A stretch of DNA of 54,819 nucleotides from Alphaproteobacteria bacterium (GTDB taxonomy: Bacteria > Pseudomonadota > Alphaproteobacteria > Caulobacterales > Aquidulcibacteraceae): assembly GCA_018971945.1 (NCBI GenBank), contig JAGWZH010000008.1:1-54819 (forward strand), in the 5' to 3' direction. This document shows positions 29,602 to 30,270 of the stretch, in pieces; positions within the stretch are counted from its first letter, which is position 1; each line of letters begins with the position of its first letter. The notes under the pieces are model-generated. The model had not been told where the DNA came from, made no database searches, and saw only the letters and a program-made list of their open reading frames with translations. A program made the position numbers and the translations under genes.

Positions 29602-30183
29602 ATGATCGTGTGCGGCGTGGATGAAGCGGGGCGAGGGCCTTGGGCTGGCCCTGTGGTGGCGGCGGCGGTGATCCTCCCGCCTGAGGGCGCGCCCAAGGGC
29701 GTCGCTGATTCAAAGACGCTCACCCCCGCGCGACGGGCCGCTTTGGAGACCGCGATCAAGGCCTCCTGCGTGTGGGCGCTCGGTGAAGCAAGCGCCCTAG
29801 AAATCGACCAGCTCAATATCCGACAGGCGACCCACCTCGCCATGCGTCGGGCCATCGCGGGCCTCGCGCTGTCGCCCCATCTCGCCCTGGTGGATGGCGC
29901 GGACGCGCCCAAGGCGGATTGCCAAGTGCGGGCCTTGATCGGCGGAGACGCCCTCGAGCCCGCCATCTCAGCGGCCTCGATCCTCGCAAAAGAACATCGC
30001 GACCGGCTGATGCGCGGGCTTTGTGAAGCCTATCCAGGCTACGGGCTCTCCGCCCATAAAGGCTATGGCGTCCCCGCCCATGCCGCCGCGCTGGCGCTCC
30101 TGGGACCCTGCCCCATCCACCGCATGAGCTTCAAACCTGTGCGCGAAGCCGCAGAGGCCGCCGCCCGAAGAAACGGCGGCTGA
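29602..30183 (+). CDS. rnhB: Ribonuclease HII
   Basis: The 193-residue protein starts at ATG 29602 ([13 protein letters not shown]). A TTG at 29563 would add an Arg-rich leader and is less likely. Catalytic residues D7 and E8 are in the [13 protein letters not shown] motif, with further acidic residues in [11 protein letters not shown] and [13 protein letters not shown]. The closing motif [17 protein letters not shown] is standard. It removes RNA from RNA-DNA hybrids, including single ribonucleotides. It directly precedes ccrM, an order seen in Caulobacter relatives. Confidence 0.95.
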
Positions 30184-30270
30184 TTCGGAACCGACAAATC
30201 AGATTCTCAAGCGTGAATCCTTTGTTTACCGTGGTCGGAGAAAAAGCCTCCTTGACGATCGCGGAGACTC
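30182..30270 (+). promoter_or_regulatory. Cluster of four GANTC (CcrM) sites in the ccrM leader
   Basis: GANTC occurs at 30182-30186 (GATTC), 30202-30206 (GATTC), 30215-30219 (GAATC) and 30266-30270 (GACTC); the last ends one base before the ccrM ATG. The site is the known CcrM target. In Caulobacter, GANTC sites in the ccrM leader take part in its cell-cycle control. Here autoregulation is an inference from density and position. Confidence 0.7.

Follow-up and report, generated by a model that had tools for sequence, protein, structure and literature searches.

Two of four GANTC sites before an alphaproteobacterial ccrM gene are conserved, one of them within a CtrA-box-like element

Maintenance methylation in the alphaproteobacterial cell cycle is carried out by CcrM, an enzyme expressed for a brief period only; how this period is fixed has been worked out mainly in Caulobacter. 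Promoters activated by CtrA carry two TTAA half-sites separated by seven bases (N7), from which single-base departures are known. The footprinted CtrA site of the Caulobacter ccrM promoter reads TTAA-N7-CTAA (PMC3751295), activating CtrA boxes of Caulobacter promoters start near -39 (PMC4287350), and published models of Caulobacter ccrM have CtrA transcribe the gene from hemimethylated DNA only (PMC2217572). Sinorhizobium meliloti ccrM is likewise bound and activated by CtrA, with occupancy and a loss of expression after CtrA depletion both shown (PMC4433202). Brilli et al. tallied the GANTC sites of promoters and were unable to deduce control from them (PMC2877005). In Caulobacter, the expression changes seen when CcrM is absent are not, in general, negatively correlated with those seen when it is in excess (PMC3973325), which calls for caution about assuming simple feedback.

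Here, I consider the DNA before ccrM in an alphaproteobacterial genome, using a window (the whole stretch of DNA that was analysed) of 54,819 bp, to which the coordinates below refer unless a locus is named. An earlier note on this window had pointed out four GANTC sites before ccrM, and these are indeed in place, spanning 89 bases with the last ending one base 5' of the ATG at 30272 (Table 1). The gene was also named correctly, since its product matches PF01555 (1.7e-64) and PF18755 (RAMA, 4.1e-20), with DPPY and a second segment of 11 residues invariant; CcrM orthologues across the order have 56-76% identity, and the best named matches come from uncultured Hyphomonadaceae and Caulobacteraceae bins and from Phenylobacterium, which points to an uncultured bacterium of the Caulobacterales type. 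Judging by this orthology and by the avoidance of GANTC described below, the CcrM of this genome would be expected to methylate GANTC. The genome also encodes GcrA (PF07750, 8e-53, 180 bits) and a CtrA orthologue (84% identity to the Caulobacter query, 2.6e-127). Since site 1 lies on the rnhB stop and site 4 on the ribosome-binding site, just sites 2 and 3 occupy plain intergenic DNA. The ATG listed for rnhB is its probable start, the longest open reading frame (ORF) beginning at a TTG at 29563, and no Rfam family matched in the ccrM leader region. Further upstream, a short tandem repeat (GGGGCCTTAGGGTTG, 29405-29470) lies between a zinc-metallopeptidase-like ORF and rnhB, and a repetitive stretch at 27990-28250 (translated GFPVLWGSLSSGVPCPL and similar) occupies the 5' part of the metallopeptidase-like ORF, where it probably represents noncoding repeats ahead of the real start.

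Table 1. Features of the ccrM locus in window coordinates.
Feature	Position	Strand	Remarks
GANTC site 1 (GATTC)	30182-30186	.	-90 from ATG; overlaps rnhB TGA stop (30181-30183)
GANTC site 2 (GATTC)	30202-30206	.	-70 from ATG; 13 bp from site 3
GANTC site 3 (GAATC)	30215-30219	.	-57 from ATG; best conserved of the four
GANTC site 4 (GACTC)	30266-30270	.	-6 from ATG; overlaps last G of GGAG
Ribosome-binding site GGAG	30263-30266	+	5 nt before ccrM ATG; from sequence
Composite element TGAATCCTTTGTTTAC	30214-30229	+	CtrA-box-like TGAA-N7-TTTAC; left half contains GANTC site 3
Putative weak -10 region	30237-30246	+	From alignment to relatives and the -39 CtrA-box position in Caulobacter (PMC4287350)
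rnhB (ribonuclease HII), upstream neighbour	29602-30183	+	Pfam PF01351, E 7e-40
ccrM, 364 aa	30272-31366	+	N6/N4 DNA methylase domain (DPPY), C-terminal RAMA domain
mutY-like A/G-specific adenine glycosylase, convergent neighbour	31357-32466	-	Domain search

The closest likeness is to the ccrM promoter of Caulobacter crescentus/vibrioides, with which this locus shares the gene, several GANTC near the ATG, N7 spacing (here in a CtrA-box-like element) and the presence of genes for both GcrA and CtrA. The earlier note had drawn this parallel and it holds, given that the C. vibrioides leader (L123) has three GANTC in 130 bp, including two immediately ahead of the ATG, and that its gene is the subject of the hemimethylation model (PMC2217572). 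However, the C. vibrioides leader has its CtrA box upstream and apart from its two paired GANTC sites (GACTCatGATTC), whereas this genome has a GANTC built into the left half of the CtrA-box-like element and a second one 13 bp upstream. The leader is best called a variant of the Caulobacter ccrM promoter with a composite GANTC/CtrA architecture. Among open-licence papers, I found no published description of this composite, of a class-wide GANTC density before ccrM, or of GANTC autoregulation of ccrM outside Caulobacter.

The evidence for the composite comes from its recurrence and its location. Site 3 lies within GTGAATCCTTTGTTTAC, and eight genera of the family share TGAATC followed by TTWA, with the overall form TGAA-N7-TTWA, while three further groups carry TTGATTC-N4-TTAAC, readable as TTGA-N7-TTAA; the spacing is exactly N7 in every composite case and is that of a CtrA box. 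A GANTC and TTWAC composite is present in 19 genomes from 10 genera, compared with 0 or 1 for scrambled versions. TGAATC-N5-TTWAC occurs a single time in this whole genome, at site 3, and the tighter pattern TGAATCYTTYKTTWAC has 17 matches in 60 family genomes, one per genome, 16 of which fall in the ccrM leader on comparison with ccrM coordinates; its reversed control has 0 matches in the same 60 genomes. All five genome-wide matches to the variant TTGATTC-N4-TTAACCG likewise stand before ccrM. Such a promoter element with a built-in GANTC, almost confined to ccrM, suggests that the gene may sense the mark made by its own product. The box of this genome (TGAA-N7-TTTA) has the exact N7, but 2 of its 8 core positions differ from TTAA-N7-TTAA, and the better-fitting TGAA-N7-TTAA is present in many relatives. 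A separate resemblance, possibly coincidental, is that CAAATCAGATT (30195-30205, ending in site 2) equals 11 bases of the Caulobacter ctrA-P1 CtrA site ATTCGCAAATCAGATTAACCA in PMC3751295.

A scan of 29900-30500 revealed no consensus sigma-70 -35/-10 pair, and a TTGACG at 30252 was rejected as a -35 since its -10 would sit inside ccrM, past the ATG. A weak -10-like stretch is aligned in the relatives seven bases after the box. If 30214 is near -37 to -39, ccrM would start at about 30250-30253 and have a leader of approximately 20 nt with GGAG. I lean towards reading 30182-30270 as a ccrM promoter and leader of the Caulobacter kind that is CtrA-type, methylation-responsive and self-regulated; as in a Caulobacter-type autoregulated leader, GANTC is both in excess and conserved, and CtrA control of ccrM is plausible here. 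In such a promoter, phosphorylated CtrA (most likely) would bind TGAA-N7-TTTAC at 30214-30229, around -37, and activate a start near 30250, with GANTC sites 2 and 3 placed beneath and just upstream of the activator; replication would leave both sites hemimethylated, CcrM would later restore full methylation, and the promoter would be expected to be most active between fork passage and remethylation and then off, producing a replication-coupled, self-limiting pulse. Because the activator site bears CcrM's own mark, the proposal is that replication opens the promoter and CcrM closes it, with CtrA binding, the start site, and the methylation sensitivity and its sign all being predicted features.

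Alternatively, the cluster could work through GcrA and sigma-70, where methylated GANTC recruits GcrA-RNA polymerase and the TTTAC is merely part of a promoter. The gcrA gene is present, GcrA binding is described as N6-methyladenine-dependent in Caulobacter and other Alphaproteobacteria (PMC3667746), and a GANTC in the -35/-10 spacer is tied to mid-cycle activation in Caulobacter (PMC4287350). This locus resembles the GcrA/CcrM-dependent sigma-70 promoters (ftsN, mipZ, ctrA P1) in being a cell-cycle gene promoter with GANTC in a genome encoding GcrA. Furthermore, in Rhodobacterales and many further families the ccrM leader (L069, L147, L150, L157, L181, L213 and others) contains TTGAC-N3-GANTC-N6-GANTC, which puts GANTC in the -35/-10 spacer and is often accompanied by a further upstream GATTC. 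Across 138 class genomes this pattern has 23 matches genome-wide, 17 of them in the ccrM leader by coordinate comparison, while the reversed control has 0 in the same genomes; allowing slightly wider gaps, the spacer geometry is found in 36 of 179 leaders and in 0 for scrambled controls. I found no paper on ccrM leaders of this type among open-licence papers. However, although multiple GANTC are common to both, the Rhodobacterales-type sites flank a clear TTGAC -35 and there is no composite CtrA box, whereas the leader considered here has no GANTC between a recognisable -35 and -10: sites 2 and 3, at about -50 and -37 respectively, fall outside the spacer, and the alignment puts both upstream of the putative -10. 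In addition, the conserved spacing is to the TTWAC half-site, at exactly N7, and ccrM is under CtrA control in both of the experimentally studied relatives, leaving a GcrA-driven cluster unlikely at this locus.

A second alternative is that the four sites have no effect on ccrM and are passengers that arose by drift, GANTC being tolerated between genes, and this brings us to how unusual the cluster is. The window holds 51 GANTC compared with 233 +/- 12 expected from dinucleotide shuffles, and a 234-kb sample from this genome contains 0.97/kb. The earlier note was thus right to call the site sparse, but its explanation through high GC is insufficient since composition predicts far more, and the shortfall points to avoidance. 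The Poisson probability of at least four GANTC in 91 bp is 2e-6 at 0.97/kb, 3e-5 at 2/kb and 5e-4 at 4/kb, and no other place in the window, and just one other in the 234-kb sample, has at least four within 89 bp. These figures uphold the claim that the cluster exceeds chance. Genome-wide frequency, the check that the earlier note had set, gave an intermediate answer: three-site clusters (both gaps <=30, searched across the 3.41-Mb draft genome) number 21 overlapping matches at 14 places, tandem repeats included, and these 14 places rule out a cluster unique to ccrM and make its density rare rather than unique. Density alone is therefore weak evidence of function, and the number of GANTC sites by itself does not prove strong methylation feedback. 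Other dense clusters of the same genome are found at L225 2026-2078 (G000:C149) and L219 2010-2098 (G000:C38), with 4 and 5 sites within 90 bp and no evident gene, and at L217 1990-2054 (G000:C33), a tandem 15-bp repeat GATTCTCGGGGACTT with one GANTC per unit. The ctrA and gcrA leaders of this genome have one GANTC each.

The case for a function would rest on conservation across relatives, not on density within the genome. A ccrM gene is present in 98 of 101 relatives, and the 130-bp ccrM leaders of 70 same-order genomes (this one included) contain a mean of 2.74 GANTC compared with 0.09-0.37 for seven other palindromic pentamers of the same composition, related genomes being non-independent samples and leader starts being assigned by homology. 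Averaged by genus (23 genera), the values are 2.07 and 0.05-0.55. Similarly, the mean is 2.16 in 80 named Alphaproteobacteria loci (0.17-0.36 for controls) and 3.11 in 28 further class-wide loci (0.18-0.68), where the 80 named and 30 class loci were the best CcrM matches and no random draw from the class. At least three GANTC within 130 bp were found in 99 of 179 alphaproteobacterial ccrM leaders (170 distinct); elsewhere in these loci, 15 of 4,856 windows (0.3%) have as many, and the scrambled pentamers almost never reach this density. There are also sparse leaders, with 0 GANTC in 19 and 1 in 37 of the 179, indicating that the cluster is dispensable in some lineages. Now considering the passengers again, intergenic GANTC is over-represented more than 1.5-fold in Alphaproteobacteria generally (PMC3973325), repeats or DNA that appears noncoding account for several of the 14 three-site clusters, and conservation is lacking at sites 1 and 4, all of which speaks for drift; however, pentamers of the same composition reach no comparable density in the same leaders, the composite is nearly ccrM-specific, and even with a 1.5- to 4-fold intergenic excess P is about 5e-4 or less, which makes a purely passive origin improbable.

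Conservation does not extend to the four sites as one unit, and here the earlier reading, sound on the identity of ccrM, on a cluster beyond chance and on the Caulobacter parallel, has to be amended: site 3 is conserved and site 2 is too in nearer relatives, but sites 1 and 4 are not consistently so. The 13-bp spacing between sites 2 and 3 is repeated in L005, L007, L009 and L029, and this pair was dropped as a candidate core unit because only site 3 reaches past the nearest genera. A few relatives (L007, L019, L056, L058 and L059) also have site 1 at the rnhB stop, and site 4 is particular to this genome, with no conservation at that position. Both look lineage-specific and are probably accessory or neutral. 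It is very unlikely that site 4 and the whole cluster serve translation or remethylation timing (as a late-methylated or hypomethylated landmark) rather than ccrM transcription, for although site 4 touches GGAG and locally hypomethylated GANTC promoters are known in Caulobacter (PMC5172544), site 4 is unconserved, mRNA is unaltered by DNA methylation and no protein-protection site was identified.

A third geometry is seen in the neighbouring genus g11 (L011, L012, L014-L019 and L021-L024), where the leader holds a GACTCttGATTC..GAGTC..GAATC array at about -54, -47, -40 and -24; GGTTAAC precedes it, and its final GANTC occupies the expected -10 place. Since geometries differ among families, what recurs is the density of GANTC ahead of ccrM, in architectures that are lineage-specific. 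I would tentatively suggest, short of favouring it, that the ccrM promoter across Alphaproteobacteria is a dedicated methylation-sensing module in which multiple GANTC are kept and the geometry is rebuilt, as a CtrA-box fusion here, as TTGAC-N3-GANTC-N6-GANTC elsewhere, and as a 7-7-16 array in one neighbouring genus. If true, CcrM's mark would feed into the enzyme's own expression as a conserved input, also in lineages with a different partner regulator (CtrA or GcrA). The ccrM-specific composite and the second, double-GANTC promoter type of other families provide precise bases to mutate, and together they form a set of natural variants in which it can be asked whether CcrM senses its mark via CtrA, GcrA or both. 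The sole TTGAC-N3-GANTC-N6-GANTC of this genome is at L252 (G000:C148:39398-39421, - strand), close to where genes for a zinc-ribbon protein and for an ftsE-like ABC ATPase start in divergent directions.
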